DNA from: Paenibacillus sp. FSL K6-3182
Lineage (GTDB): Bacteria; Bacillota; Bacilli; Paenibacillales; Paenibacillaceae
Direction: 5' to 3'
DNA: 64,000 bases
NCBI RefSeq assembly: GCF_037976325.1
Contig: NZ_CP150265.1
Span: 4,769,501 to 4,833,500 of the forward strand
The notes beneath the pieces are model-generated. The model saw nothing but the letters and a program-made list of their open reading frames with translations. It was not told the origin of the DNA and did not search any database. Below, in pieces: positions 10,335-25,401 of the stretch. A program made the translations under genes and the position numbers. How positions within the stretch are numbered: the first letter of the stretch is position 1; each line of letters begins with the position of its first letter.

Positions 10335-11633
10335 ATGTCTAAAATTACTTTTATCGGCGCAGGAAGCAGTGTTTTTGCCAAAAACATTCTTGGAGATGTC
10401 ATGCAAACACCTGCACTGCAAGGTTTTGAAATCGCTTTATTTGACATTGATGCGGAGCGTCTTCTCGATTCCGAGCAAATGCTGCTTAATATTAAAAAAA
10501 CAAGTGAAAGCACTTGCCAAATTAAAGCTTATACCGACCGGAAAGAAGCGCTTCGCGGTGCCAAATACATCGTAAACGCCATTCAAGTAGGCGGCTATGA
10601 TCCGTGTACGATTACCGATTTCGAGATTCCAAAAAAATACGGCTTGCGCCAAACGATTGCCGATACCGTAGGCATTGGCGGCATTTTCCGTAATCTACGC
10701 ACGATTCCTGTGATGCTGGATTTCGCTCGCGATATTAACGAGGTTTGTCCAGATGCCCTGTTCCTTAACTACACCAACCCAATGGCCGTGCTCACGAATG
10801 TCATGAACACCTATGGCGGCGTGAAAACGGTTGGCTTATGCCACAGTGTACAAGTTTGTGTACCGCATTTATTTGATCATTTGGGTATGGACACAACGGG
10901 CGTTAAGTACAAAATTGCAGGCATCAACCATATGGCATGGCTGCTTGAAGCAAGCAAAGACGGAGTTGATCTTTACCCGGAAATCAAACGCCGTGCAGCC
11001 GAGAAGCAATTGGAGAAACATCATGATATGGTTCGTTACGAGCTCATGCTGAAATTCGGCTACTATATCACCGAATCTTCCGAGCACAATGCGGAATACC
11101 ATCCATACTTCATCAAACGGAACTATCCAGAGCTGATCGAGCGTTTCAACATTCCTCTCGATGAGTATCCTCGCCGCTGTGTTAGTCAAATTGAAGGCTG
11201 GAAATCCATGCGCGATTCACTTATTAATGACAGCAAGCTTGAGCACTGCCGCAGCCATGAATATGCTTCTTACATTCTCGAAGCAATTGAAACGAACAAC
11301 CCGTTCAAAATTGGCGGCAACGTGATGAATACTGGACTTATTACGAATCTGCCGAAGGAAGCATGCGTAGAAGTGCCATGCCTCGTTGATGCGAATGGCG
11401 TTACACCAACCTATGTTGGCGACCTTCCGCCACAGCTTGCAGCATTAAACCGTACGAACATCAACACGCAGCTATTAACGATCGAAGCGGCAATTACTGG
11501 CAAGCGGGATCATATTTATCACGCTGCAATGCTTGATCCGCATACCTCAGCAGAATTGTCTATGGATGACATTGTATCGCTTTGTGATGAGCTCATCGAA
11601 GCTCATGGCAGCTGGCTCCCAAGCTATAAATAA
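10335..11633 (+). CDS. melA: Alpha-galactosidase, glycoside hydrolase family 4
   Basis: 432 residues, full length for GH4. The NAD+-binding Rossmann motif FIGAGSSVFAKNILGD is at the N-terminus. The metal-binding Cys and His of GH4 are in VGLCHSVQ and GINHMAW, and NYTNPMA is also typical. The overall sequence matches the MelA branch. GH4 enzymes cleave by an NAD+- and Mn2+-dependent oxidation-elimination mechanism in the cytoplasm. AGGAGG lies 10 bp before ATG. It would remove alpha-1,6-galactose from imported melibiose-type or galactomannan oligosaccharides, which fits the mannan locus further along. GH4 also contains alpha-glucosidases and alpha-galacturonidases, so specificity is probable, not proven. 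Confidence 0.9.
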   Translation: MSKITFIGAGSSVFAKNILGDVMQTPALQGFEIALFDIDAERLLDSEQMLLNIKKTSESTCQIKAYTDRKEALRGAKYIVNAIQVGGYDPCTITDFEIPKKYGLRQTIADTVGIGGIFRNLRTIPVMLDFARDINEVCPDALFLNYTNPMAVLTNVMNTYGGVKTVGLCHSVQVCVPHLFDHLGMDTTGVKYKIAGINHMAWLLEASKDGVDLYPEIKRRAAEKQLEKHHDMVRYELMLKFGYYITESSEHNAEYHPYFIKRNYPELIERFNIPLDEYPRRCVSQIEGWKSMRDSLINDSKLEHCRSHEYASYILEAIETNNPFKIGGNVMNTGLITNLPKEACVEVPCLVDANGVTPTYVGDLPPQLAALNRTNINTQLLTIEAAITGKRDHIYHAAMLDPHTSAELSMDDIVSLCDELIEAHGSWLPSYK

Positions 11634-11639
11634 ACGAAT

Positions 11640-11688
11640 AGGCAGACGAGTGCATCGTTATTCATGCACTTGTCTGCCTTGTTTTTTT
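11640..11688 (+). terminator. Strong rho-independent terminator after GH4
   Basis: 16-bp stem AGGCAGACGAGTGCAT / ATGCACTTGTCTGCCT with one G-T pair, followed by a T-run. Confidence 0.9.
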
Positions 11689-11776
11689 CCAGTAACCTTC
11701 ACCATCATATGGGCAAACACATATCCTATCCCAGTAAACATTTAACCAGCTAATGAAAGAGGGGCAGGATTTACAA

Positions 11777-12550
11777 ATGACTTCTTATATGGACTATACG
11801 TCTCCACAAACGGAATTTGCTTATGATTTGAACAATAGTACTTTTTTCAAAAAAGATCCATACAACTACATCAACTTGCTTTCAGTGAAGCAATTGAATA
11901 CGTTAGGGAATTCGTCGCTTCTTGATATCTACCTTAGCAAAAGCAATGTCGTTGAGCCTCATTACCATCAGAATGCCTCTGAACTCGTATATTGCATATC
12001 AGGATCAGCAGAAATAGCGCTTATGAACCCTTTTACGAACGAGTTCCTTCATTACTTGGTACAACCTGCTCAAGTCGTCAACATTCCGCAAGGCTGGTGG
12101 CACTATGAAATGGCGACCGTCGATAATACTCATCTGCTAGCCATCTTTGATGCGCCAATCCCAGAAGTTATTTTTGGCTCCGATATTTTAAGATTAACTC
12201 CAACCAACATCCTTGCGTATACCTACTGCTTAGATCAAGAAAAATTAGAAAATGCGTTAGCACCTTTAAAGGACACCGTTATTTTGGGACCTCCGAGCAA
12301 TTGCAGCTATAATCCCGTACAAGGCCAAAGCAAAAATATGCAAAAGCCTAATCAAGCTCCAATACAGCAGCAAGCTCCAGTGCAATCGAATCAAGTATTG
12401 CAATCCAATCAAGTATTGCAGCCAAACCAAACGTTGCCGTCCAATAAAGCATATCAGCCTAATCAAGCTATTCAATCTAACCAAGCTAAACCTAACCAAG
12501 GCTATTACAATCAAATGTATGGCCATCAGTATTATCAGCATCCATATTAA
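11777..12550 (+). CDS. Cupin-domain protein with Asn/Gln-rich C-terminal tail
   Basis: About 257 residues from the ATG at 11777, preceded by AGAGGGGCAGGA; an ATG at 11753 lacks a ribosome site. Residues 40-150 are a single cupin barrel: HYHQNASELVYCISGSAEI holds the metal-binding H-x-H and E, and VNIPQGWWHYEM the second motif. The last 80 residues are low complexity, with repeated QSNQ, QPNQ and PNQA blocks ending in a Tyr/His-rich tail (YNQMYGHQYYQ). There is no signal peptide. Oxalate-decarboxylase-like cupins with sticky Gln/Asn/Tyr tails occur in spore coats, so a coat or spore-associated role is possible. Function unproven. Confidence 0.8.
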   Translation: MTSYMDYTSPQTEFAYDLNNSTFFKKDPYNYINLLSVKQLNTLGNSSLLDIYLSKSNVVEPHYHQNASELVYCISGSAEIALMNPFTNEFLHYLVQPAQVVNIPQGWWHYEMATVDNTHLLAIFDAPIPEVIFGSDILRLTPTNILAYTYCLDQEKLENALAPLKDTVILGPPSNCSYNPVQGQSKNMQKPNQAPIQQQAPVQSNQVLQSNQVLQPNQTLPSNKAYQPNQAIQSNQAKPNQGYYNQMYGHQYYQHPY

Positions 12551-12651: not shown

Positions 12652-15600
12652 TTACCCCAGAATCCATCTTGCAAGCATCGCGATATCCACAATATCAATT
12701 TTGCCATCCGCATTTAGATCGGATTTCTTATATTGCGACCAATTCGGATCTGCGCTTGTTTTGCCATATGCAGATGCTACGATGCCGAGGTCGCCAATCG
12801 ATACCTTATTGTCGTTATTAATATCGCCTGACAATTTGGAAGCTTGGAACGTCGTCACTGCCGCACTTAGCTGAGCAATAGCTGCGCTCACTTGCGCTTC
12901 GCTTGCATTCGGGTTAACGGCAACGGCTTTCGCTGTGGCAATGGCTTCACCAAACGCTGCTTTTGCTGCTGCCGGATATTGACCAGGCTGTGTGCCGACT
13001 ACCGCTCCATCGTAAATGGCTTCCGCTGCGGCTATCACCTGATTTAAGCCCGTCACATCAACAACGGCACTAATTTGCAGCGTATGGGATGCTGATTTTG
13101 CTTCAAGTTCTTCTCCCAAGCTATTAGCAACTGTAAAGTCGCTAATTTGAATGGCTGTATTGCCTGTGCTCCCCGTAACAGCTGCCAAGAAGCTCAGCTT
13201 CAGCCATTCCGAATTGGCATCAATGCCTTTGCCTTGACCTGCAGCTACAATCCTCACCTTGCCGGGCTCGATAACCTTTTGCTCAAGGATGCTGAAATCC
13301 TGCTGCAAGGAGGTTGCGCCAGTCAGCGTTAATTTCGCAGCATCGAAGCTAACTGTTAAAATTTGCGCATACAGCTTTGAATATTTCTCCTCCGTTACGC
13401 CTGACAATCCAACCGTTGCATCGAAGGATTGACCCGCTTTCACCAGTGCCGCTACGGCAATCGTAGCTGTCGCGTCTTTCACAGCAGGAGGTACTACAGA
13501 AGCTGCGAAGTCAGCAACCGATTTGCCGAGTGCCGCCAACGCTGCATCTACTGCCGCTTGATCTGCAGTTGCAAGAGCCAATACGTCTTTAGCTGTTGCG
13601 ATTGAAGCAGCAAATGCATCTTTTGCAGACTGCGGATATTGACCGGGCTCTGTACCTGCAACAGCGGAATTAAGTTTGGCTTCAGCAGATACAACTGCCG
13701 CTTGAAGCGCTGTTTTATCCGACAATTGAGCAGGACCAACCGAGAAATAATCGAAATTCGCTTGGATTGACGTTTTATCACCCGAAGATAAACCATAGAA
13801 GCCGATTTTCAAATTGCTTAAATTAACAGTCATCGGGTCTGCCGCAGGTTTCCATGCGCTGCCATCCCAATAGAAAGTAGAAACGACATTGCCTACCTTC
13901 TTGATTTGCAAATAGGACGTATCGTAACCTGGATGGCTGACCATGTTTGTCGCTTTAACATAAACCGCATTTTTCTCATATGCGGTTTCGAGGCTTTTGC
14001 CAGTTGTAGCTTCCGTATCCCAAACATGGCCCAGCTTAACGTAATTGTCCTCATTTTGCCAAATGAACAGTCCCGCTTGCTGGAAGTTTTTGCGTACAGG
14101 AGCTTCCACTTTTGTTGTAATGACGAAGTCGCCTGCTGGCGCATCCTTTAAAAATATGTTCGGCAAGTTATTTGAATTTCCGAATGTGTCGCCTGGTGAA
14201 GTGTCCAAGCTTAAAAAGCCTGGTTTGCGTGTCAGCGACCATTTGGAGTTGTCTGCTTTAAAGACAGACCAAGCTCTGTCTAGCGTCGCCTCATTAAACG
14301 GATCAACGGAAGAACCCGCCGGAATGGGATCGTTTACCGATACAAAAAATTGCTCACGCGCGTTTTGGAGAGATTTAAGGACTGTTTGAATTTGTGCAGG
14401 CATTGCAGCCTCATCTTGAGCTGTCTCGCGAGCTAAATCAATGACAGCCTTAAAGGAATCAGCAGTCGATTTCTCATATTCGCCGGCTCCTGCGCCTATT
14501 TTCGCGAGATTCAGCATTCCTTCTGCTCTGGCAATTTCAGCGAGCAAATCCCCTTTGGTTGCTGTGCCGATGAGCTCACGGTGCGCGGTCGCAATTCGAT
14601 CAAAATCCATTTTTTCAACCTTGCGATCGTAAGACAATAAGCCGTTAATTTCATATTCCACATCTGTAATTTGTGTGTAAATGGCTGCGCTCAGGCCTGA
14701 TTCCTTCAGCTGCTTCAGCCTGTTGATGTAGGCGATATAAGTAGAAGTCAGCTGTTCTTTGCTATTCATTAATTGATAGGAGAATACGAGTGGGCTCCAT
14801 TCATGCCCTGGGACATGCAAGCCTAAACCGCCATATTCGCCAAGCACAGCTGCCCTTGTATCGCTGTAATTCGGAGCGCCGGGATCAGGATAGCGATGAA
14901 TATCATTCAAATCGCCGACGCCCGCATCCCACCAGCCGCTTGTGCTGTTAACGAGCCTAGTCGAATCAAGGCTTTTTACATAGCTGGTAGCATCCTTCGT
15001 CATTTGCCCGCCTTGATCAAATTGTCCCCAGCCTTCATTAAACACCGTCCACACAATGATCGATGTCACGCTGCGCAATTGATCGACCATCTCTTTGTAT
15101 TCTTTAAACCACTGCGTCTTCGTTGCTTGTGTAATATCTGACCCTTTATTTCCTTGACGATCCTCAAGGCTAGGCATATCCTGCCATACGAGTACGCCTA
15201 GCTTATCTGCCCAATAATACCAGCGTGCAGGCTCCACCTTAATATGCTTGCGAATCGTATTCATGCCGACGCGTTTAACCGCCTCGATATCAAATTTCAA
15301 TGCTTCGTCCGTAGGTGCCGTGTATATGCCGTCCGGCCAAAAACCTTGATCAAGCGGACCCATCTGGAAGACGAATTTCCCATTTACTAGCGGCCTTGTT
15401 ATACCGTCTACCTTGCCGAGCGTAATCTCTCTCATGCCAAAATAGCTTGAAACCTCGTCTACCGTTTGTGCTCCATCCTTCAGATACACCTTTAAATCAT
15501 ATAGATAAGGATCATCTGGGGACCAAAGCCGTGCATTTGGAACTGCCACTGCAATCTCAGCTCCAGCTGCTCCTGTTGCGGTTCCCACCACTTTTCCATT

Positions 15601-17169
15601 TTCCAAAACAACTGCTTCAATCGTTTGTCCTTCAACGCCGATAGCAGCTGCCTTCAGCTTCAAGATGCCGTTTTGAATATCTGTTACCATGTCGAGTTTA
15701 TCGATATGTGCAGCGGCTACAGGCTCAAGCCACACCGTTTGCCATATACCCGATACGGAGGTATACCAAATGCCGCCGAGTTTTTTGACCGTTTGCTTGC
15801 CAACCGCTTGGTCTGCTCCCATATCCGTCTCATCCAGTACATGGACGATAAGCTCATTTTCCCCAGGCACAAGATAATCCGTAATATCAAAGCTAAATGA
15901 GGTATAACCTCCCTTATGGCTGCCTACCGATTGTCCATTGACATACACCGTTGCCAAGTAATCAACCGCGCCAAAATTCAGCTTCACTCGCTCACCATCC
16001 CAGCTCTCAGGTACGGTAAAGGAGCGCTTATACCACATGAGATCCTCAACGCGGTTAATGCCCGAAAGCTTTGCTTCTGCTGCAAACGGAACAAGAATTT
16101 TCTCCTTCAGCACTTGACCTACAGGAACAGCTTCTCCTTTCTGGGCTGCTTGGAACTCCCATTCCCCATTCAAATTCATCCATTTTTCACGCGCTAATTG
16201 TGGTCTTGGGTATTCAGGCAGTACGTTTTCTTTGTCTACATCCTCCGCCCAAGGGGACATGATCTGATATTTCGAACCATTGTAGACAGGTTTATCGAAG
16301 CTAGCTACAGCAGCTCCCGCCACCGTTTCCAGTCCGCCTTTGCCATCGTAGATTACTTTAACATTGCCTACATCCTTAGAGTACATTGGATCTTTCAGCA
16401 GTACGGTGACGACTTTATCGTCCCCATCCTTCAAAGCTGCCGACAGAATAGGCAAATCGCCCGTCACGATACGCAATTTCAGATGCTTAACAAATTCAGC
16501 AGTGATTGGCTTCAAAGATTGTTGGAATGGCAGCTCAACTTGCAAACCATCCTCGGACACGATACCTCCAAGCGCGAAACCGTCTGGCAAGTAAAACGCT
16601 TCTGTTGGAACTGCCTCCTTCGCTAAGCTCTTGCTAGACCAGCGCAGGTGAACATTCGAGCCGCCCGTGTCTTCGAACAACTCCAGCTTAATGCTGTATT
16701 TCTGACCTGCAACCAAAGTGACAGGCTTTGAAGTTTGCTCTTTGTCCCAGTCCGCTATCCAGTGGTCGATCGTAAGCTTATTATCAACCCAAAGTCGGAA
16801 GCCATTATCACCTGTAATGTAAAAGGTATAGTCCTCAGAAAGCTTAGGCTGAATGAAACCAGTCCATCTGATGCCGACGCGATCTTCTTGTCCTGTAAAC
16901 ATTTTGATAGCCGGCTCTAAATTGGAAATATCCAAATTCGAATCGTAGCCAGCTCCTTTAAAGGTTCCAAAAGCAAAATTGGGCGGCCCTCCCGCAGTGA
17001 AATATTCAGCCATCAGCCCATGCTGCTGCGAAGCTGCCATCCCCCCTGCATCTGCTGCCGCAGCCCGGGGTGCAAAGGAGATTGCGGAAGCTACTATACT
17101 AAATATCATAGATAATGCCACAAGCGTACTCATTGTTTTTCTTATATTCAACATGAACGGAACCTCCAA
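12652..17169 (-). CDS. Giant secreted GH2 glycosidase: PA14-GH2-FIVAR-LamG-like-FIVAR-cohesin-FIVAR-dockerin
   Basis: 1505 residues. Order of parts: signal peptide (to about 40); PA14 carbohydrate-binding domain (about 50-190, LWVDNKLTIDHW); GH2 sugar-binding, Ig-like and TIM-barrel domains (about 320-870) with probable acid/base E712 in FNEGWGQFD and nucleophile E778 in LGEYGG; a FIVAR-like helical segment; a concanavalin-like domain (about 960-1150); a second FIVAR (GTEPGQYPQSAK); a cohesin-like beta-sandwich (about 1228-1367, DNA 13069-13488); a third FIVAR (GTQPGQYPAAAK); and a type I-like dockerin (1448-1505) with two intact calcium loops, DINNDNKVSIGD and DLNADGKIDIVD. Substrate is probably a beta-galactoside or related plant glycan; the GH2 subgroup is uncertain. 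It is the last gene of the operon that starts with the cohesin-SLH gene and lies 63 bp after GH127. Confidence 0.9.
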   Translation of the reverse strand: MEVPFMLNIRKTMSTLVALSMIFSIVASAISFAPRAAAADAGGMAASQQHGLMAEYFTAGGPPNFAFGTFKGAGYDSNLDISNLEPAIKMFTGQEDRVGIRWTGFIQPKLSEDYTFYITGDNGFRLWVDNKLTIDHWIADWDKEQTSKPVTLVAGQKYSIKLELFEDTGGSNVHLRWSSKSLAKEAVPTEAFYLPDGFALGGIVSEDGLQVELPFQQSLKPITAEFVKHLKLRIVTGDLPILSAALKDGDDKVVTVLLKDPMYSKDVGNVKVIYDGKGGLETVAGAAVASFDKPVYNGSKYQIMSPWAEDVDKENVLPEYPRPQLAREKWMNLNGEWEFQAAQKGEAVPVGQVLKEKILVPFAAEAKLSGINRVEDLMWYKRSFTVPESWDGERVKLNFGAVDYLATVYVNGQSVGSHKGGYTSFSFDITDYLVPGENELIVHVLDETDMGADQAVGKQTVKKLGGIWYTSVSGIWQTVWLEPVAAAHIDKLDMVTDIQNGILKLKAAAIGVEGQTIEAVVLENGKVVGTATGAAGAEIAVAVPNARLWSPDDPYLYDLKVYLKDGAQTVDEVSSYFGMREITLGKVDGITRPLVNGKFVFQMGPLDQGFWPDGIYTAPTDEALKFDIEAVKRVGMNTIRKHIKVEPARWYYWADKLGVLVWQDMPSLEDRQGNKGSDITQATKTQWFKEYKEMVDQLRSVTSIIVWTVFNEGWGQFDQGGQMTKDATSYVKSLDSTRLVNSTSGWWDAGVGDLNDIHRYPDPGAPNYSDTRAAVLGEYGGLGLHVPGHEWSPLVFSYQLMNSKEQLTSTYIAYINRLKQLKESGLSAAIYTQITDVEYEINGLLSYDRKVEKMDFDRIATAHRELIGTATKGDLLAEIARAEGMLNLAKIGAGAGEYEKSTADSFKAVIDLARETAQDEAAMPAQIQTVLKSLQNAREQFFVSVNDPIPAGSSVDPFNEATLDRAWSVFKADNSKWSLTRKPGFLSLDTSPGDTFGNSNNLPNIFLKDAPAGDFVITTKVEAPVRKNFQQAGLFIWQNEDNYVKLGHVWDTEATTGKSLETAYEKNAVYVKATNMVSHPGYDTSYLQIKKVGNVVSTFYWDGSAWKPAADPMTVNLSNLKIGFYGLSSGDKTSIQANFDYFSVGPAQLSDKTALQAAVVSAEAKLNSAVAGTEPGQYPQSAKDAFAASIATAKDVLALATADQAAVDAALAALGKSVADFAASVVPPAVKDATATIAVAALVKAGQSFDATVGLSGVTEEKYSKLYAQILTVSFDAAKLTLTGATSLQQDFSILEQKVIEPGKVRIVAAGQGKGIDANSEWLKLSFLAAVTGSTGNTAIQISDFTVANSLGEELEAKSASHTLQISAVVDVTGLNQVIAAAEAIYDGAVVGTQPGQYPAAAKAAFGEAIATAKAVAVNPNASEAQVSAAIAQLSAAVTTFQASKLSGDINNDNKVSIGDLGIVASAYGKTSADPNWSQYKKSDLNADGKIDIVDIAMLARWILG

Positions 17170-17232
17170 AGATTCATAGTATCGATACCCAAATCTAGTG
17201 GAGGAAGTGATGCGCCTTCCCCCTTGTACCGT

Positions 17233-20200
17233 TTAGCCAAGAATCAAACGAGCGAGTAATGCAAGATCCTCAATATCCACTTTGCCATCATGATTCAAAT
17301 CTGCCTTTTGGAACTGCTGCCAATTCGGATCGCTGCTGGATTTGCCATACGAATAAGCTACAATCGCCAAATCGCCAACAGTAATTTTATTATCATGATT
17401 CACGTCACCGTTACTTGGCTTGATGACACCGGCAAGGAAATCTTCTACTGCAGCATTCAGCTTCGTCATCGCGGCTGCAATTTCAGCTTTCGTTGCCTTC
17501 TCGTCATCAGCAACCAGCTTTGCTTTGTTGATAGCCGATTGCAGCTGCTGCTTCATCGCAGGAGGATATTGTCCCGGTTCTGTTCCTGTTTCCGCTCCAT
17601 CATACAAAGCCTGCGCTTGCGTTAACGCCGCCAGCAGTGCAGACTTATCACCCGGAGCTGCCTGTATCTGAAGATGATGCTGAGCTTCAAGCAGCAGCTG
17701 CTCCTGCCCTTCTGCGTTTGCAAGCTTAACGTCGGTTACCGTTATAGAGGTATTTACCGTTTCATCTGCTATGCCAGCTCGGAAAGTCAGCTTCAGCCAG
17801 TCTTCGTTTGGTGAAAGGGCTGCCCCCTCTCCAAAGGCTAATATCCGAATTTTGCCCGGCTCAAGCTCTTTGGGTTCAAGTACATTCAGCCCCTCTCGTA
17901 GTGATGCCGCACCCGAGAAGCTTAGTTTGCTTGGATCAAAGGTTACCGTAACGTCCTGCGCATAAACGCTCTGATACACACTGTCCGTAACATTTCGAAC
18001 CGCTAAGGTAAGATTCAGATCAGCACCGCTCGGTACGCTTGCAGCACCTGTCAGTACAGCTGTCCCTTGATCCGAAGGCTCAACAGCTTCTTTACTAGCT
18101 GCTGACAATGCGATGTAGTCTAGCTCATAAAAGCCTGGATTTGGTCCAGAACCCCGCATAAACTTGATCGAGTTAACCCCTTCCTTCAGCTCAACGTTGA
18201 CGCTTGAAGCCATAAATCGGCCCCAATTAATCGTCCCTGCGAGCTGCAAGGACTGCTCTTCGCCTTCATTAACCATAATTTTTGCAGCAGCTGGCTGATA
18301 ATTCCCCGTATTTTGTGCGTACCAAATGAACATTTTGTACGTCCCTGCTGCTGGAACCTCAACCTGATTAAAGTTAACGTAGCTGTCGGCATAATCGATG
18401 CCGCCAACGTAGCTTGAGCCTGATGCATGCACATTATTGCTGCGAGCCGTCGCCTTGAACAGCTGGGCGTTTTCCGCCTCATATTTATAAGGTTGAATGC
18501 CCGTTTCCTCAGTCACCTCAGGGAAATAAGTAACCCGCAGGTTTTCTGCTCCAAACGGAACAAGCGTAATTTCCTCCGTAGGCTCTGCGGAAAATACAGG
18601 ACCAACCGGCGGCTCTGCGGCTGATACCCCGTTAGCTGCTTTGCCCCATGACGGGATTCTCTTCCCTTTTGCAATTAGCTTTATCGGGGTAGTCTCCTGT
18701 ATGAACGGATTATCCGGCATATCGGATACGACGACCTGAATCGAATCTGCTGGGTTGTCGCGATCAAGCAGCAAACCATAATTCCAAGGGGACTGCGCAT
18801 TGATGCTGTATTCCTTGAAGCCAGGCGCCTTCACTTGCGGCGCTGGATTAGACTGCTCTACCCAGTTCTCATCGATTTTCAGAGAGAATACGAGCGGTCC
18901 TCGTTCGATGCCAATTGAATTGTTGACCCAAGACGACGTTTTGAGCTCCATTGGCAGCGTCAATACAACGGTATCGCCTTTTGTCCATTGCCGATCAATC
19001 GTAAAATATTGGCCGGATACTACTGCCTCTTGCGGCTGCCCATTCACCGTGATAACTGCTTTGTCCGTCCATTCCGGAATACGCAGCTTCAGCGGGAAAT
19101 TCACACTCTTGGACGCTTCCTCAATCGTAAACCGAATTTGATCCTCGAACGGATAGTTCGTCGTTTCCTTAACGGTTACATTCGCTCCATTGATTTTGGC
19201 TGATACACGGCTCGGTCCATAGGCAATAACGCCAAGCCCGCCATCCGAAGTACCCGCCCACATGTCCTTCACAAAATAAGGCCAGCCCATATGCATATTG
19301 AAACGACAGCAAGGATAACCCGAATAAGGCGATTGTACGGTGCCATTTCCGTAATTTTGCTTATAGCCATGATCGGTTAAGCCGCTTTGCACTTGATTCG
19401 GCAGCGAATAGTATTGATGGGTTTTAATATCCTTGCTCATTGCACCCGGAAGCGAATTAAAAGTAATTTTCTCCAGCGCATCTCCGATTGCCGGATCACC
19501 GGTAATCATGGCTGCAACCGCGTTGCTGTGTACCCGCTCCACAATGGCACAAAGCTCAACCCCTTGCGTTGAAGCTAACCCTGCGAGCATCTCTGTTCCT
19601 GAATTCATGCCGGTAATTTGATTGTGTGATTGATTCAGATGCTCTACGCCTGCTTGAAATGCAAGCTTATCTGCTTCATTGTTCGATAGTTGATAATAAA
19701 TAGAGGGGGTTTTAATCGATTGATTTACGTTGACTGTATGCTGCGAGTAAAAGTTATCAGGATTAATCTTAGCGGCTGTTAAAAAATGGTCGTTCGTAAA
19801 AATGTCAGTCTCATCACCGCCTTGCTTATGCAGCTTCTCAGCGAGCTGCAGCAGAAACACATCTCCTGTACGGTTGTACAGCCAGAGGACGATATTCATA
19901 TTGTCGCCGCTGCGGATTTGTCCCCAATCCCTAAGCGGACGCTGGTCTAGATTGTTCAGCTGGTAATGAAAATAGTTCGTAAGAAAAGAAATCACTCTCT
20001 TATCATTTGTCGCCTCGTAATAATCCTTGAGCACATAAATAGCAACCATGCGCGGCCACCAATCATTGTCGCTGGCAGGACCGAAGAAGCCGTCATCACG
20101 CTGGCTATTCAACATCCAATTGACCCATTTTTGCGACTTTGCAATCAGCTCCGGATCGTCAAGCGTATAAGCGAGCGCGACCAACCCCTTCACATAATAG

Positions 20201-21615
20201 ATAGGGCGTTCCCAGTTCGATTCTGGCGCTGTTCCACCCAGCCACTCCGAATTTGTGCTGAGCTCTCCGTATAAATCCTCTGCGTATCCGGTTGCACCAT
20301 CCTTCATTAGTTCTAATTGCTTAAGCAGCCAACCATCAGCTTTGACCGATCCAAGCGGAAGCGGCACAAACGGTGTTTGTACAAGCGGATCTTTATTTTT
20401 GACCAGCTCTTGGAACGACTCCGCCGGTACGGCATAGTCAGTTGCAATAAAATTGTCAAATAGCGGCTCAGACTCATCCGCCCATACCCCAATGCCGCCT
20501 GAGGTAAACTTTTGTTCACTGTCATCGGTGTATTCCAGAATGGAATTATGCATATCGTCCACATATATTTTGATGCCATTCCCATAGGTTACCACCTTCA
20601 ATTGATAAAACTTGTTCGCAGTGACCGTATCCAGCGCCTTAACGACTTTCAGATCGGTCCACTTATCCGTTAGCCGGCGAAGAACCAAGTTTCCATCATT
20701 TCGCAGTCCTGCAAAATAACCTTGGAGCACCTTTCCCTCACCGCTTAGCTTAGTTCGAAACAAAAGTCCTGCAGTACCCGTAGCTAGCGGTAGCTTAATA
20801 TCAGTCTCCACTGTAAAATCGGTGAACACCGTATCTTTTACGAGCAAAGCCTGATTTGCGCCAGCGTTTACGGTTATCCCGCCCGATTGCAATTCCCACT
20901 CGCCTTGAGCAGCATGCCAACTCGGCAATGTGAGCCCATCCGCTGGGGCATCAAATGAATCCGTAAATGCGAGCTCCCCCTTATCATTTGAAAGTTTGAG
21001 ATTGTCATAGGTCGGCTGGGATTGGTAAAGCCTTACGCCGACCTGACCTTTCGTATAGGTCGTATCCGATTGTTCCAACACCAGCTTCTCATTGACATAA
21101 AACTTAATTTGCGATCCGGCAACGCTAACTTTAAAGTGATAAACTACATTAGGATTAATCGCTATCGAAGTTCGCTTCAGCTCAGTCCATTTGTTGTCCA
21201 TACGGCCTAGAAATACGCTGCCCGTTCCTTGCGCGGAAATGCCTGCGTAATAACCTTTCACATTGTCCGCCCCTGGCGCTGCGCTAACCGTTCGGAAAAG
21301 CAATCCCGCATCACCGTTGCGACTGGCAAGGCTTATATCTGCCTCCACGGTGCCATCTTGTATTTCGGTTTGCTTAACCAAAGCTTTAGATCCCGATCCG
21401 CTTTCTCCGGTCATTTTGCCATTTGCCGTTGACCATATTCCATCGATGACCGTCCAATTTTCATTAATGATGGAACGATTGAAATGATCCTCGAAAAAAA
21501 CCGGCTCTGCTCCAGTCGCAGCTTCTACATGAACTGCTGGCAGAAAAATGCTAACATACATTGAAAAAATGAGCGGTAAAACAATCATTGATTTCAGCCT
21601 GGCACTGAACCGCAT
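17233..21615 (-). CDS. Giant secreted GH127/GH146 beta-L-arabinofuranosidase with CBM, cohesin, FIVAR and dockerin
   Basis: 1460 residues. Signal peptide; two tandem concanavalin-like (DUF1080-type) domains (about 35-210 and 215-395, both with a GLLFRT strand); a GH127/146 catalytic domain (about 410-1000); a CBM35/CBM6-like domain (about 1045-1170, ending GFYELDYIAL); cohesin-like domain (about 1185-1318, DNA 17665-18063); FIVAR (GTEPGQYPPAMK); dockerin (1403-1460) with loops DVNHDNKITVGD and DLNHDGKVDIED. The zinc/catalytic residues of GH127 are all present: E687 and C689 in GVELCAIVE, C769-C770 in YPCCRFN. The spacing matches the known E-x-C...CC arrangement, in which the first Cys of the CC pair is the nucleophile. 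It would release terminal beta-L-arabinofuranose from plant glycans outside the cell. It follows the TlpA gene by 88 bp. Confidence 0.92.
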   Translation of the reverse strand: MRFSARLKSMIVLPLIFSMYVSIFLPAVHVEAATGAEPVFFEDHFNRSIINENWTVIDGIWSTANGKMTGESGSGSKALVKQTEIQDGTVEADISLASRNGDAGLLFRTVSAAPGADNVKGYYAGISAQGTGSVFLGRMDNKWTELKRTSIAINPNVVYHFKVSVAGSQIKFYVNEKLVLEQSDTTYTKGQVGVRLYQSQPTYDNLKLSNDKGELAFTDSFDAPADGLTLPSWHAAQGEWELQSGGITVNAGANQALLVKDTVFTDFTVETDIKLPLATGTAGLLFRTKLSGEGKVLQGYFAGLRNDGNLVLRRLTDKWTDLKVVKALDTVTANKFYQLKVVTYGNGIKIYVDDMHNSILEYTDDSEQKFTSGGIGVWADESEPLFDNFIATDYAVPAESFQELVKNKDPLVQTPFVPLPLGSVKADGWLLKQLELMKDGATGYAEDLYGELSTNSEWLGGTAPESNWERPIYYVKGLVALAYTLDDPELIAKSQKWVNWMLNSQRDDGFFGPASDNDWWPRMVAIYVLKDYYEATNDKRVISFLTNYFHYQLNNLDQRPLRDWGQIRSGDNMNIVLWLYNRTGDVFLLQLAEKLHKQGGDETDIFTNDHFLTAAKINPDNFYSQHTVNVNQSIKTPSIYYQLSNNEADKLAFQAGVEHLNQSHNQITGMNSGTEMLAGLASTQGVELCAIVERVHSNAVAAMITGDPAIGDALEKITFNSLPGAMSKDIKTHQYYSLPNQVQSGLTDHGYKQNYGNGTVQSPYSGYPCCRFNMHMGWPYFVKDMWAGTSDGGLGVIAYGPSRVSAKINGANVTVKETTNYPFEDQIRFTIEEASKSVNFPLKLRIPEWTDKAVITVNGQPQEAVVSGQYFTIDRQWTKGDTVVLTLPMELKTSSWVNNSIGIERGPLVFSLKIDENWVEQSNPAPQVKAPGFKEYSINAQSPWNYGLLLDRDNPADSIQVVVSDMPDNPFIQETTPIKLIAKGKRIPSWGKAANGVSAAEPPVGPVFSAEPTEEITLVPFGAENLRVTYFPEVTEETGIQPYKYEAENAQLFKATARSNNVHASGSSYVGGIDYADSYVNFNQVEVPAAGTYKMFIWYAQNTGNYQPAAAKIMVNEGEEQSLQLAGTINWGRFMASSVNVELKEGVNSIKFMRGSGPNPGFYELDYIALSAASKEAVEPSDQGTAVLTGAASVPSGADLNLTLAVRNVTDSVYQSVYAQDVTVTFDPSKLSFSGAASLREGLNVLEPKELEPGKIRILAFGEGAALSPNEDWLKLTFRAGIADETVNTSITVTDVKLANAEGQEQLLLEAQHHLQIQAAPGDKSALLAALTQAQALYDGAETGTEPGQYPPAMKQQLQSAINKAKLVADDEKATKAEIAAAMTKLNAAVEDFLAGVIKPSNGDVNHDNKITVGDLAIVAYSYGKSSSDPNWQQFQKADLNHDGKVDIEDLALLARLILG

Positions 21616-21703
21616 CCAGCTTCACTCCTCAATCTTAGTTCTTGCAATCGCAAGCTCATGCTAAGCTTGCGTTTCAATTCAGCTGCTAGTATATGATGCA
21701 AGC

Positions 21704-22300
21704 TCACCTCCCCTCCGTTAACATATCCAGCTTGCTCTCAAACTCCATCGGATCTATCAAATGAAATGTATCCAGTACCGTGGCATCCGTATCGATAATA
21801 AACGTAGTTGGCAGCGAATGCAGCTCGTATAAATAAGAGGCACGTTTATTGGCATCCAGTAAATTCGTAAACCGCCATTCATTTTCCTCGATGAACGTTT
21901 CAATTGCGCTTGCTTGTTTTTCTTCTGATGATAGATTCACGCCATAAAAATCGACCTTATCTTCGTATTTCTCATGCAGCTTCTTTAAGGTGGGGGCTTC
22001 AACACTGCATGCCTCACACCAGCTCGCCCAAAACTGCAATACAATCGGTTTATCTTCTGCACCCGCTACGGTATGGGTCGTTCCGTTCAGATCCTTGAGC
22101 GTAAAGGCAGGCGCCTTCACTCCTGAAGTCGCTTTGCGGTGCAAAGCAGCTTCCTGATTCACACTTAATACGCTCTCCAGCGCGGATGCATCCAGCTTAT
22201 CGCCTGCATTGCCGCTCGTTTGATCCGAATTTAATATGAAAAACAAACCCAAGACCGTAGCTGACAAAAAAACGGAAATCACTAGAATCGTTTTTTTCAT
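21704..22300 (-). CDS. TlpA/ResA-like membrane-tethered thioredoxin
   Basis: 198 residues. The N-terminal hydrophobic segment (residues 4-24) lacks a lipobox and should anchor the protein with the thioredoxin domain outside. The active site is WASWCEAC (C95, C98), the TlpA/ResA spacing, with the cis-Pro region LPTTFIID. Its ATG overlaps the stop codon of the cohesin-SLH gene by 4 bp (ATGA), implying translational coupling, and GH127 follows. TlpA-type proteins usually reduce extracytoplasmic disulfides. The only obviously thiol-dependent client here is GH127, whose Zn-binding and catalytic cysteines must stay reduced; that link is inference. Confidence 0.88.
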   Translation of the reverse strand: MKKTILVISVFLSATVLGLFFILNSDQTSGNAGDKLDASALESVLSVNQEAALHRKATSGVKAPAFTLKDLNGTTHTVAGAEDKPIVLQFWASWCEACSVEAPTLKKLHEKYEDKVDFYGVNLSSEEKQASAIETFIEENEWRFTNLLDANKRASYLYELHSLPTTFIIDTDATVLDTFHLIDPMEFESKLDMLTEGR

Positions 22301-23328
22301 TGCTTTGAGTCAATCAAAGTAAGCAAGAGAGTAACGGCTTCAGCTCGAGTCGCATTAGCGCTTGGTGCAAACTTATTTTCGCCTCTGCCTTTGATGATGC
22401 CCGCTTCGGCAGCCATCGCAACAAAAGGCTCCGCCCAAGCTGGAATTTGGCTCCGATCTGCAAACGACGATTTTTTCGCCTGATCAACCTTCCATTCGAG
22501 CGCTCTAACGACCATTACCGCAATCTCCGCGCGATTAATTGGCTTGCTAGGGCGGATTGTATTGTCCTCGTACCCTGTTATAATGCCAGCTTTTACTGCA
22601 ATTCCAACGAAAGCGGAAGCCCAGCTTGGTATGCTGCCTGCATCTTTGAACGATATATCTGCTGCAAGATCAGCCTTCAAATCTAGTGCTCGGACGAGCA
22701 TCGCTGCAAATTCCGCGCGGGTAACCTGTGCATTTGGTTTGAAGGTTCCGTCCGTATAACCGTTAACAAAACCTAGATTAACAGCTCGTTCAATGGATCC
22801 TTTTGCCCAGTGCCCCGCAATATCTTTGAATGAAAATGCTGAATTTCCTAGGTTAGCGGTAAGCTTCACATTAGGCTTCAGCGTACTGGAATCGAGGGTA
22901 CTTTTTACAAGCTTCGCATCTGTGAGCAATACCTCGGTATCTCCATTTCCTATTGGCTCGAATAGAAAGCTTGATAATACGCTTTTACCATTTTCTCCTG
23001 CTTTGTTCCCTATCTTCGTCGCAGCAAACATAATTTGATTGCCTTCGACGATCGGCGATATCGAGAATCCTGCAATGCTGCTGCTGGCACTCTTAAAACG
23101 AAGCTTCTTTGCATCAAATGACAGCTTCACCTCATAAGCGTACATATCGGTTAGCTTATCGGCAGTAACGACGATTTTAATATCCTTATCCGATTTCTCC
23201 TGAGTAAGTGCGAACACCGGCGTATCCGCTGCAAACGCAAAGCTTGGGAGTGCCATAGCAAGCAATAAAACGATCAAACCAGCCGACATAAAACGCTTAC
23301 ATTTCTTCAATGAAATCGTCCCTTTCAT
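22297..23328 (-). CDS. Cohesin-domain protein with three SLH repeats (putative surface anchoring scaffoldin)
   Basis: 343 residues. Signal peptide ending around FAFAAD (residue 34); residues 35-160 form a cohesin-like beta-sandwich (FALTQEKSDKDIKIVV, YEVKLSFDAKKLRFKSAS, LSSFLFEPIGNGDTEV); residues 165-343 are three S-layer-homology repeats (FKDIAGHWAKGSIERAVNLG, FKDAGSIPSWASAFVGIAVK, FADRSQIPAWAEPFVAMAAE), with TRAEFAAML, NRAEIAVMV and TRAEAVTLL motifs. SLH repeats bind pyruvylated secondary cell-wall polymer, so the cohesin would be displayed on the cell surface. It is the first gene of the operon that encodes two dockerin-bearing enzymes, which makes it a natural docking base for them. The ribosome site before the ATG is weak. 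Confidence 0.88.
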   Translation of the reverse strand: MKGTISLKKCKRFMSAGLIVLLLAMALPSFAFAADTPVFALTQEKSDKDIKIVVTADKLTDMYAYEVKLSFDAKKLRFKSASSSIAGFSISPIVEGNQIMFAATKIGNKAGENGKSVLSSFLFEPIGNGDTEVLLTDAKLVKSTLDSSTLKPNVKLTANLGNSAFSFKDIAGHWAKGSIERAVNLGFVNGYTDGTFKPNAQVTRAEFAAMLVRALDLKADLAADISFKDAGSIPSWASAFVGIAVKAGIITGYEDNTIRPSKPINRAEIAVMVVRALEWKVDQAKKSSFADRSQIPAWAEPFVAMAAEAGIIKGRGENKFAPSANATRAEAVTLLLTLIDSKQ

Positions 23329-23465: not shown

Positions 23466-23505
23466 TAAATAGAGCTGCTCTCTATATAGACAGAGAGCAG
23501 CTCTA
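23466..23505 (-). terminator. Terminator of the GH51-DUF6171 operon
   Basis: Perfect 13-bp stem AGAGCTGCTCTCT / AGAGAGCAGCTCT with an 8-base loop, followed on the minus strand by ATTTATTTTT. It isolates the GH51 operon from the cohesin-SLH operon, which must have its own promoter between 23329 and 23465. Confidence 0.85.
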
Positions 23506-23812: not shown

Positions 23813-25306
23813 CTATTCCGAGATCAGCTCTAGCACCGTTACCGACATTGGGGAGAGCTTCGCGCTAATTTTTGATCCATTAACAGTGAAAGCTTGGAAT
23901 GCGGTTGGCGCAACAGCTTCCGGATTTTCAAAATTGTTGTGCGCGTCCTTAACGGAAGCTGTAAGCTCTGTACCCGAAACCTTAAGCCCTGCACCTGCTA
24001 GGCCGCGAAGATCAATCTCCACATCCGCTTCGGACTGATTGTCCAAATTACACAAGCTTACATGGATGCGGCCACTCGCGTCCTTCGAAGCAGATACGGA
24101 TACTTGCGGAATCTTCTGGTCATTGTGCGCATAATCCTGACTGTCAATCGAAGTGGTAAGAAGCGTTGCATCCTGATGCACCTTATACATATCAAAAACG
24201 TGATATGTTGGCGTCAGCACCATTTTCTCACCCTCAGTCAAAATGACCGATTGCAGCACATTGATCACCTGAGCAATGTTAGCCATTTGTACCCGGTCAC
24301 AATGATCGTGGAAGATATGAAGCGTAATTCCAGCAACCAGCGCATCACGAATTGTGTTTTGCTGATACAGGAACCCTGGATTTGTACCCGGCTCCACATC
24401 GTACCACGTACCCCATTCATCAACCATAAGGCCTACCCGCTTCTTCGGATCATAACGATCCATAATAGCCGAATGGCGTGTAATCAGCTCGTCCATATAA
24501 AAGGTTTTCTTTAATGTACCGTACCATTCATCCTCGGAGAAGCCTGTTGCAGCACCTTTTTGCGTCCAAAACTCACCCGGAATGGTGTAATAATGCAGCG
24601 ATATCGCATCCATCATCCCATGCGCTTCCCGCATGACAACGTCCATCCAGCCGTAATCATCTACGTTTGGACCACAAGCGATCTTATGGATTTTGTTATC
24701 GCCATAATTGCGCACATAGGTTTGATATCTGCGATACAGATCCGCATAATATTCAGGACGCATGTTGCCGCCGCAGCCCCAGTTCTCGTTGCCGACGCCA
24801 AAATATTTCACGTTCCACGGCTTTTCCCTGCCGTTTTCTGTACGCAGTTCTGCCATTGGCGATACGCCGTCAAATGTCATGTACTCCACCCACTCCGACA
24901 TTTCCTGAACGGTGCCGCTGCCCACGTTTCCTGATATGTAAGGCTCGCATTCCAGCATTTCACACAGCATCAAAAACTCATGCGTGCCAAAATGATTGTT
25001 CTCAACAACACCGCCCCAGTGGGTGTTGATCATCCGCTTGCGCGACTCGCGCGGCCCAATGCCATCCTTCCAATGATATTCGTCCGCGAAGCAGCCCCCC
25101 GGCCAACGAAGAACTGGAATTTTCAGCTGCTTAAGCGCTGCAACTACATCATTGCGAATCCCGTTTGTGTTCGGAATAGGAGAATCCTCTCCTACCCATA
25201 TCCCTTCATAAATACAACGTCCCAAATGCTCAGAGAAATGTCCATAAATATTGCGATTAATCGTACCTGCAGCCAAATCAGCGTTAATGGTTATGCGGTT
25301 TGCCAA
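23813..25306 (-). CDS. Alpha-L-arabinofuranosidase, GH51
   Basis: 497 residues from a TTG start at 25306 (preceded by GCGAGG at 8 bp), giving [14 protein letters not shown]; this matches the usual N-terminus and length of GH51. The longer reading from 25369 adds an unlikely hydrophobic leader. The acid/base is E174 in [10 protein letters not shown] and the nucleophile E297 in VDEWGTW, the expected positions. There is no signal peptide, so it acts in the cytoplasm on imported arabino-oligosaccharides, complementing the extracellular GH127 enzyme next door. It is the first gene of a two-gene operon with the DUF6171-type protein. Confidence 0.93.
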
Positions 25307-25357
25307 ATGAATCGACCTCGCTTCAATATAATAGAATAAATAGACTTTGATAAATAG

Positions 25358-25401
25358 TTGGATTAACATATTTATTTATCCAAATACTTAAACGTTAATC
25401 C
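25358..25401. promoter_or_regulatory. Inverted repeats upstream of GH51
   Basis: Two overlapping inverted repeats: TTGGAT (25358-25363) with ATCCAA (25378-25383), and GGATTAAC (25360-25367) with GTTAATCC (25394-25401). They lie about 50-95 bp upstream of the GH51 start in a region that should hold its promoter. They do not look like an AraR site. Regulator unknown. Confidence 0.4.

Follow-up and report, generated by a model that had tools for sequence, protein, structure and literature searches.

Complexes between X82 cohesin and FIVAR-dockerin modules of Clostridium perfringens (2ozn, 2jh2, 2vo8) were reportedly described by Adams in 2008. In C. perfringens ATCC 13124, the available text of one account places a cohesin on five glycoside hydrolase (GH) proteins, a dockerin on five, and both on one GH31 protein (PMC12997984). 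Cellulosomes have been described from four genera, with few exceptions, according to the accessible portion of a 2024 survey; the same portion reports for Paenibacillus guangzhouensis 28 proteins that each bear a single cohesin and a single dockerin, many of them with an N-terminal GH domain (GH2, GH20, GH29, GH31, GH43), together with five SLH-anchoring cohesin proteins onto which docking was suggested (PMC11557425). Other extracellular multienzyme complexes of Paenibacillaceae lack a cohesin-dockerin linkage in the accessible text of their descriptions: S1 of P. curdlanolyticus B-6 bears SLH repeats without a cohesin and Xyn11A has no dockerin (PMC6823336), while CelABC has neither dockerins nor a cohesin scaffoldin (PMC6794216). 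Nothing on Paenibacillus cohesins or dockerins appears in the available parts of three further papers (PMC12484212, PMC7157769, PMC5817068).

The window analysed here is a stretch of 64 kb from Paenibacillus sp. FSL K6-3182. The preliminary description of it had read one operon at 12652-23328, encoding a cohesin-SLH anchor, a thioredoxin and two giant secreted glycosidases, and this reading was borne out, with all four genes confirmed on the minus strand at those coordinates and by Pfam matches. Both enzymes end in the order cohesin-FIVAR-dockerin, and the thioredoxin gene overlaps the anchor gene by 4 bp. The features are as follows (eCoh, enzyme cohesin; aCoh, anchor cohesin).

12652..17169, minus: secreted GH2-type enzyme, 1505 aa (PA14, GH2, FIVAR, GH43_C2, FIVAR, eCoh, FIVAR, dockerin), from ORF and Pfam
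12655..12831, minus: its dockerin, 33.2 bits, calcium-ligand positions 8/8
12844..13074, minus: FIVAR preceding that dockerin (FIVAR 44.1 bits for this enzyme)
13081..13479, minus: its eCoh, PF00963 36.3 bits in the genome search (cut-off 24.1)
14620..16194, minus: GH2 domains, PF02837, PF00703 and PF02836 above cut-off
17233..21615, minus: secreted GH127-type enzyme, 1460 aa, from ORF and Pfam
17236..17415, minus: its dockerin, 33.8 bits, calcium-ligand positions 8/8
17437..17649, minus: its FIVAR, 22.8 bits, under the cut-off of 29.2
17677..18072, minus: its eCoh, PF00963 32.7 bits (cut-off 24.1); 2vo8, TMt 0.90
18826..20400, minus: GH127 catalytic and middle domains, PF07944 and PF20736 above cut-off; PDB relatives 5mqo, 4qjy
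19306..19311, minus: Cys769-Cys770, matching the CC of GH127 structures in the alignment
19549..19551, minus: Cys689, matching the E-x-C site of GH127 structures in the alignment
21704..22300, minus: ResA/TlpA-like thioredoxin, AhpC-TSA E 8e-22; N-terminal membrane segment read by eye
22007..22018, minus: CxxC motif of the thioredoxin, Cys95-Cys98
22297..23328, minus: anchor protein, 343 aa, one aCoh and three SLH, from Pfam matches; signal peptide read by eye
22324..22848, minus: three SLH repeats, TRAE/NRAE/TRAE at residues 203, 265 and 327; PF00395 155 bits in 3 stretches
22840..23235, minus: aCoh, residues 32-163; PF00963 18.0 bits, family profile, neighbours
23470..23505, minus: terminator-like hairpin, 16 pairs and a T run, in the interval separating the operon from the GH51 gene
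23813..25369, minus: GH51-type gene, operon neighbour, PF06964 above cut-off

As read from the sequence, the 16-pair hairpin (23505-23470, minus) sets the operon apart from the upstream GH51 gene; it is distinguished by its length only, the window holding 15 terminator-like sites against a shuffle mean of 12.4. Promoter-like sites showed no excess (22 versus 20.3 by chance), and the 64-kb window contained no RNA element above Rfam thresholds and no tRNA. The GH51-type neighbour, which scores 267 bits against the ArfA model (cut-off 625), recurs in five other loci (L019, L020, L021, L067, L071).

Within the catalytic domain of the GH127-type enzyme, the Glu, the Cys and the CC are all present in alignment with 5mqo and 4qjy, and we take these residues to have catalytic roles. 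The enzyme falls under the cut-off of NF049879, aceric acid hydrolase (96.8 versus 950 bits). A target among arabinose- and galactose-containing glycans, as first proposed, is plausible given the GH127, GH2, GH51 and GH4 enzymes in or beside the operon, but no matched NCBIfam enzyme model reaches its cut-off. The two enzymes of the operon probably trim plant glycans containing arabinose and galactose, and the products probably pass on to the GH51 and GH4 enzymes.

The Pfam check proposed for the modules was passed by the SLH repeats, three as claimed, by both dockerins, both enzyme cohesins and the FIVAR of the GH2-type enzyme, but not by the anchor cohesin or the FIVAR of the GH127-type enzyme. 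The GH2 eCoh is absent from the hmmscan listing despite its score in the genome search; it was among the six sequences that seeded the local cohesin profile. The window aCoh lies under the PF00963 cut-off of 24.1 bits (18.0 by hmmscan, 19.2 in the genome search), whereas related anchors exceed it (L015, 31.9 bits; L074, 32.1 bits) and the cohesin of the anchor at L017 falls on either side (23.4 bits; 25.1 in the genome search). A protein search with the window aCoh returned only 6 relatives, and its family profile found nothing significant among PDB sequences (best E 0.15). The predicted model of the relative at L039, an anchor cohesin 36% identical, matches PDB cohesins of types I and II; the best 50 of its 1617 fold matches are all cohesin, cohesin-complex or scaffoldin entries, the one exception by title being 2o4e, named only as a GH84 interaction module. 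A cohesin fold for the window aCoh is thus supported by way of this model. The earlier assignment of the beta-sandwich domains to the cohesin fold was supported for the GH127-type enzyme as well, the model of its eCoh matching 2jh2 and 2vo8.

The likeness to C. perfringens is partial. Related cohesin and FIVAR-dockerin modules are carried by enzymes, which would likewise be joined without a scaffoldin: the GH127 eCoh is structurally nearest to C. perfringens cohesins, of which 2ozn is one solved with a dockerin, and the FIVAR-dockerin of the same enzyme matches 2jnk/2ozn by sequence (E 3e-13). The arrangement of FIVAR and dockerin differs (rmsd 10.5 to 2ozn_B), and here, unlike in C. perfringens, the enzyme genes are accompanied by one for an SLH anchor. 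Whereas cohesin and dockerin lie mostly on different enzymes of that species in the available text (PMC12997984), 85 of the 87 dockerin ORFs in 12 Paenibacillaceae genomes also hold a cohesin. The clostridial cellulosome with its SLH anchoring scaffoldin shares the cohesin, dockerin and SLH modules, and the L039 aCoh matches type I and II cohesins, but a cellulosome is built on a non-catalytic multi-cohesin scaffoldin. None was found in the window genome, whose 10 cohesin matches lie in 10 separate ORFs; a cellulosome was ruled out on this ground, and the non-cellulosomal character claimed for the assembly agrees with it.

By sequence, this anchor-enzyme kit is widespread, and the window operon is a single instance of it. 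A survey of Paenibacillaceae, suggested at the outset, found an anchor cohesin at E<=1e-20 (a threshold chosen after the data had been seen) in 81 of 245 genomes, every one of which (81/81) also had a dockerin; 27 of 108 dockerin-bearing genomes were without a strong anchor cohesin. These scans took the best 15 or best 26 candidates per genome. A locus scan of at least 594 stretches gave at least 31 confirmed loci, and a dockerin gene lay within 3 kb of 31 of 34 anchors (gaps -24 to 737 bp); anchors without an adjoining dockerin gene were those of L015 and L033. Across the 12 genomes, 38 of 39 anchors had a dockerin within 12 kb where 1.2 were expected, which excludes chance as the cause of their proximity, and up to 7 dockerin ORFs lay within 40 kb of one anchor. 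Of 71 anchor-cohesin matches (E<1e-20), 39 entered this count, as did 88 of 114 enzyme-cohesin matches; the 26 enzyme-cohesin matches excluded comprise 23 on anchor ORFs and 3 on other ORFs, all three in genome G075. None of these counts represents independent events, since there is overlap, or there are close strains, among the 31 loci, the window genome and the G genomes: L019, L033, L043 and L049 come from one strain close to that of the window, and L022 and L072 are the same stretch. Kit enzymes across genomes belong to GH2, 3, 20, 43, 51, 78, 92, 101 and 127, PL8 and PL11. Some proteins combine cohesin and dockerin with no Pfam catalytic domain (L069 2955-3680, 241 aa; L073 6671-7948, 425 aa; L023 11003-13036, 677 aa, which adds fn3 and FIVAR), and L045 holds a natural fusion of the order PL8 enzyme-eCoh-dockerin-aCoh-SLH.

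What the sequences show to be conserved as a set, in one operon, is a single-cohesin SLH protein together with enzymes that combine cohesin and dockerin; the enzymes carry both partners and therefore could link to each other. We consider it likely that these proteins form a scaffold-free assembly at the cell surface, in which the enzymes serve as their own scaffold and chain head to tail from the SLH anchor. The SLH repeats would fix the anchor to pyruvylated wall polymer; a CsaB pyruvyl transferase is present in the genome (270.5 bits, cut-off 213.1) and above cut-off also in 4 of 14 control genomes. The cohesin of the anchor would take the dockerin of one enzyme, whose own cohesin would take the dockerin of the next, giving a head-to-tail chain of a few enzymes per anchor with no scaffoldin. 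The operon would determine the composition, here one GH127-type and one GH2-type enzyme.

It is unlikely, in our judgement, that each anchor holds a single enzyme, the dockerin binding the anchor cohesin only and the enzyme cohesin binding some other dockerin protein or a glycan. Such an arrangement fits the adjoining positions of anchors and dockerins and the low scores of anchor and enzyme cohesins against each other's profile. The link-only proteins and the number of dockerin ORFs near one anchor, however, are easiest to account for if enzyme cohesins receive dockerins, and the nearest structural relatives of the GH127 eCoh include one solved in complex with a dockerin. A slimmer chance goes to a closed monomer in which the dockerin folds back on the cohesin of its own chain, the modules serving stability and opening being conditional. 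The sharing of one ORF by cohesin and dockerin agrees with this reading, as do an enzyme cohesin tree that divides exactly along dockerin class and a distance correlation between the two modules of r 0.793, a value confounded by their presence in one protein. Against it, the model of the window eCoh-FIVAR-dockerin, built on a shallow alignment of 14 sequences, gave no fixed placement (pTM 0.63), and a closed monomer leaves no role for the adjoining cohesin-SLH anchor or for proteins made of cohesin and dockerin only. That there is no assembly at all, the modules being leftovers or serving as spacers or for carbohydrate binding, beside an unrelated SLH surface protein, is very improbable: the sub-threshold Pfam score of the window aCoh speaks for it, while the retained calcium ligands, the dN/dS of dockerins in computable pairs (0.03-0.21) and the co-occurrence of anchor and dockerin in all 81 genomes speak against it.

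For the scaffold-free chain, the first joint is addressed by an AlphaFold2 model of the L039 dockerin tethered to its anchor cohesin (pTM 0.74; 195 of 272 residues with pLDDT>=70), in which two genes were joined by reading through the intervening stops; from the pTM alone, it is read as a confident predicted docking of the dockerin onto the anchor cohesin. A competitive one-chain model containing both cohesins was dropped, the alignment having put anchor cohesins onto enzyme cohesins. Distances between anchor cohesin and dockerin correlate at r 0.49, where the SLH control reaches 0.383 (partial r 0.337 once SLH is accounted for and 0.142 once enzyme cohesin is), suggesting a modest coevolution; label shuffles were beaten by all pairs, controls included. 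These correlations and the tree comparison cover 30 of 31 pairs, L024 being dropped because its nearest dockerin ORF has no enzyme cohesin. The two anchors of L025 hardly differ in their SLH parts (100/100), but their cohesins fall on different branches, and the branch of each cohesin fits the dockerin class of its neighbour.

Two intact calcium loops had been claimed for the dockerins of the window, and they are indeed both above the Pfam cut-off with Asp or Asn at all eight positions tested (1, 3, 5 and 12 in both loops, with position 9 left out), in agreement with the duplicated F-hand of a type I dockerin. Among 50 dockerins, 32 keep 8/8 of these positions and 4 keep 7/8, while 13 form a conserved class without calcium ligands. 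The window genome has its own example, a GH78 (rhamnosidase) locus, L017, whose dockerins keep 2/8 positions and are missed by the Pfam model. For ligand-free dockerins, one ortholog set (6 pairs) gave dN/dS of 0.03-0.21 and a second pair gave 0.10, covering 6 of the 13 proteins of the class, and decay was ruled out on these values. This class seems to do without calcium. Since the ligand-free dockerins of L017 go with a cohesin clade of their own, the two kits of this genome may be kept apart. Limited literature searches found no description of such a class, and the available text on the dockerin calcium-binding loop describes conserved ligands, not their loss.

The thioredoxin falls under the NCBIfam ResA cut-off (81 versus 170 bits). 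The extracellular GH127-type enzyme has no cysteines other than the three of its active site, and all 8 of 8 orthologues have only these three, in identical places. Thioredoxin orthologues (71-100% identity) occur in 5 of 245 genomes, and the same 5 hold the long GH127 ORF (85-100%), in scans of the best 15 or best 5 candidates per genome. All five belong to one genus. An extracellular GH127 with the CC motif at L075 (5069-9637) has no thioredoxin within the 20 kb read. Most likely the thioredoxin would hold the active-site cysteines reduced outside the cell. Limited literature searches found no description of a GH127 accompanied by a thioredoxin. Neither this link nor the ligand-free dockerins of the same genome had been remarked on in the preliminary description.

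The exact set had been thought undescribed in Paenibacillus. Its kind is already on record in the P. guangzhouensis 'scaffoldin-containing' set, which has GH-cohesin-dockerin proteins and SLH cohesin anchors alike; that account, in its accessible portion, concerns one Paenibacillus genome and is without anchor-enzyme operons, family spread, ligand-free dockerins or thioredoxin (PMC11557425). No account of the operon, the spread through the family, the ligand-free dockerin class or the pairing of thioredoxin with GH127 turned up in limited literature searches.

In summary, the marks of this kit occur in about one third of the sampled Paenibacillaceae genomes, with very different enzymes, and point to a simpler design than the cellulosome, in which no scaffold other than the enzymes themselves would be needed and a single small anchor gene would hold the cluster. 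The thioredoxin link raises the testable question of how an extracellular glycosidase that relies on a cysteine nucleophile is kept reduced. If the binding holds, the kits would provide small surface-display test systems, paired cohesin-dockerin codes and a seemingly calcium-free dockerin class. More tentatively, and with greater doubt than the chain itself, Paenibacillaceae may carry several orthogonal scaffold-free chains on one surface, each with a cluster-specific anchor and cohesin-dockerin code, one code being calcium-free and the arabinan-type kit having its own thioredoxin; if true, kits for different glycans would be kept from mixing.

The operon consists of four minus-strand genes in a complete genome of 7.56 Mb, encoding a cohesin-SLH anchor, a thioredoxin, a GH127-type enzyme and a GH2-type enzyme. 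The closest database relative of the anchor is from Paenibacillus sp. TAF43_2 (99% across the cohesin part). Signal peptides and the thioredoxin membrane segment were judged by eye from the N-termini.

Features of the operon and its upstream flank
22297-23328, minus strand: anchor; signal, cohesin, three SLH repeats
21704-22300, minus strand: thioredoxin, overlapping the anchor gene by 4 bp; membrane segment by eye
17233-21615, minus strand: GH127-type enzyme; two lectin-like domains, GH127, CBM35, cohesin, FIVAR, dockerin
12652-17169, minus strand: GH2-type enzyme; PA14, GH2, FIVAR, GH43_C2, FIVAR, cohesin, FIVAR, dockerin
23505-23470, minus strand: hairpin of 16 pairs with a T run, between the operon and the GH51 gene upstream

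GH4 and cupin genes (10335-12550) are convergent with the operon; the N-terminus of this GH4 recurs in an ORF beside the orthologous operons in L070 and L071, and a similar ORF is present in L067. Some 11 kb to the left of the window is a 661-aa ORF with GH127 (G000:C1:4756779-4758305).

Both enzyme cohesins score above the PF00963 cut-off of 24.1 bits (32.7 and 36.3), while the window anchor cohesin (18.0) and that of L017, another anchor locus of this genome (23.4 by hmmscan), fall below it; the related anchors L015 and L074 lie above (31.9 and 32.1). A model of the GH127-enzyme C-terminus (14 sequences; mean pLDDT 91.5) has as its top PDB matches the C. perfringens cohesins 2jh2 (TMt 0.82) and 2vo8 (TMt 0.90). 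The FIVAR-dockerin 2ozn_B is its sixth match, but at an rmsd of 10.5; at the sequence level, the FIVAR-dockerin segment hits 2jnk/2ozn with E 3e-13. When a profile of eight anchor cohesins was run against PDB sequences, no match was significant (best E 0.15), but the modeled anchor cohesin of the relative L039 matched PDB cohesins from E 1.4e-7, in all 50 matches listed. Since both models match cohesins, the beta-sandwiches do not fall outside the cohesin fold, as the preliminary description had allowed they might, the anchor being represented here by its L039 relative.

With the anchor cohesin as query, a scan of species genomes in GTDB returned at least 31 loci; among those listed, 30 of 31 belong to Paenibacillus, Cohnella and a single strain that bears the name Bacillus, and one to a Clostridiaceae MAG. 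In a set of 34 anchors (the 31 scan loci together with three from the genome of the window, excluding the L045 fusion), our own profiles placed a dockerin gene within 3 kb of 31. The remainder are L015 and L033, which represent one locus from closely related strains, and L026, whose contig stops 1.7 kb downstream. L015:15764-16831 is the third anchor of the window's genome, without an adjoining enzyme; 9.6 kb from it, the opposite strand encodes a cohesin-dockerin protein of phosphodiesterase type (L015:2897-6142). Searches of 12 genomes with alignments of the dockerin, the enzyme cohesin and the anchor cohesin found a cohesin in the same ORF for 85 of 87 dockerin matches, and a dockerin within 12 kb for 38 of 39 anchors, against 1.2 expected. 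One anchor (genome G053) has seven dockerin ORFs inside 40 kb. This cluster (L068 and L069; G053:C1:2202000-2240500) includes GH101 and GH20 enzymes, families linked with mucin-type glycans. Across 245 Paenibacillaceae genomes at E<=1e-6, the anchor cohesin was found in 104 and the dockerin in 108; 91 genomes had both, 13 the anchor alone, 17 the dockerin alone and 124 neither. When the anchor threshold was tightened to 1e-20, a value picked after the list was seen, these four counts became 81, 0, 27 and 137.

The dockerins fall into two classes. At the eight ligand positions tested (1, 3, 5 and 12 of each calcium loop), 36 of 50 dockerins retain seven or eight, 13 retain two to four, and one, that of the L045 fusion, retains six. 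All 13 ligand-poor dockerins share a conserved replacement sequence. Their dN/dS, which covers six of the 13, is 0.03-0.21 across six pairs from a single ortholog set and 0.10 for a further pair; the calcium-type set gives 0.07-0.09 (four computable pairs). The six testable ligand-free dockerins are thus under strong evolutionary constraint. The enzyme-cohesin tree splits exactly by dockerin class (100/100), and the anchor-cohesin tree places 10 of 11 ligand-free-class members on one branch (93/93), with L036 outside. The anchor-cohesin tree requires two class changes in total, against four for the SLH parts of these proteins. P. terricola (L025) encodes two anchors whose SLH parts are nearly identical (100/100) but whose cohesins sit on separate branches, one with L031 (94/94) and the other with L037 and L044 (92/89); each adjoins an enzyme of the matching dockerin class. 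Distances to the dockerin correlate at 0.49 for the anchor cohesin versus 0.383 for the SLH part; the partial correlations are 0.337 for cohesin given SLH and 0.072 for SLH given cohesin, but that for anchor cohesin given enzyme cohesin is only 0.142. The window's genome holds both classes, calcium-type at the window operon and ligand-free at the double GH78 locus L017; the two dockerin codes may be kept apart within it. At L017 (6008-18985; G000:C1:4106007-4118984), the second cohesin-SLH anchor has a GH78 enzyme on either side; most of the calcium ligands are gone from the dockerins of these two enzymes, a class that is conserved across other genomes too.

Each of the eight orthologous operons read encodes the thioredoxin (window, L019, L020, L021, L066, L067, L070 and L071). 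In all eight orthologues of the GH127 enzyme there are three cysteines and no others, at identical positions; in GH127 structures they align with the E-x-C and CC sites, which have a catalytic and metal-binding role. Cysteines are absent from the GH2 enzyme in six of seven orthologues, L071 having two. At locus L022, P. nanensis has an anchor and a GH2 enzyme without GH127 or thioredoxin; its genome, G111, yielded no GH127 at E<=1e-40 and a best thioredoxin of only 37%. Close thioredoxin relatives (71-100%) occur in five of the 245 genomes, and the same five hold a 1383-1468 aa GH127 ORF (85-100% identity), one of these two scans having taken the best five or fewer candidates per genome. All 62 remaining GH127 matches fall in ORFs of 302-706 aa; the 50 further genomes with such ORFs yielded no close thioredoxin relative. 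However, all five genomes come from one genus, and an extracellular GH127 at L075 (5069-9637) has no thioredoxin within the 20 kb read.

The preliminary description knew of no account of just this three-part set in Paenibacillus. For P. guangzhouensis, one paper reports 28 cohesin-dockerin proteins, many with GH domains, alongside five SLH anchors (PMC11557425), so this kind of system is already on record; another gives counts of cohesin and dockerin proteins in C. perfringens (PMC12997984). In searches of the open-access literature, neither the operon and its spread nor the ligand-free dockerins and the thioredoxin link were found described; therefore only the variant appears new.

In L045:5996-10891, a single ORF joins a PL8 enzyme to a cohesin, a dockerin, an anchor cohesin and SLH; the dockerin has a degenerate first calcium loop. 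At least five anchor-cohesin matches in the 245-genome scan, which may include L045, lie in ORFs of 1467-1660 aa. L018:5736-9497 encodes, in one 1253-aa ORF, a metallophosphoesterase with three SLH repeats and a borderline cohesin match, which scored 23.3 bits in one search and 29.2 in another. Among the link-only proteins are L069 2955-3680 (241 aa, one cohesin and one dockerin by Pfam), L073 6671-7948 (two dockerins, with Pfam finding one cohesin and our own profile two) and L023 11003-13036 (two cohesins, two dockerins, FIVARs and one fn3 by Pfam). L024:11108-11911 (267 aa), with fn3 between two dockerins and a mere cohesin stub at the ORF start, is a possible cross-linker.

A tethered L039 model (dockerin, read-through linker, anchor cohesin) reached pTM 0.74, with 195 of 272 residues at pLDDT >=70; by our estimate, about 0.46 would be expected were the cohesin alone fixed. 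From pTM alone, we read this as a confident predicted placement of dockerin relative to anchor cohesin. The cis model of the window's GH127 enzyme gave pTM 0.63, with pLDDT >=70 for 273 of its 282 residues, and therefore no fixed placement, a comparison weakened by the differing alignment depths (51 versus 14). With one socket (cohesin) and one plug (dockerin) each, the enzymes would probably be able to chain, the anchor supplying a socket and three SLH repeats, and the link-only cohesin-dockerin proteins probably acting as chain extenders.
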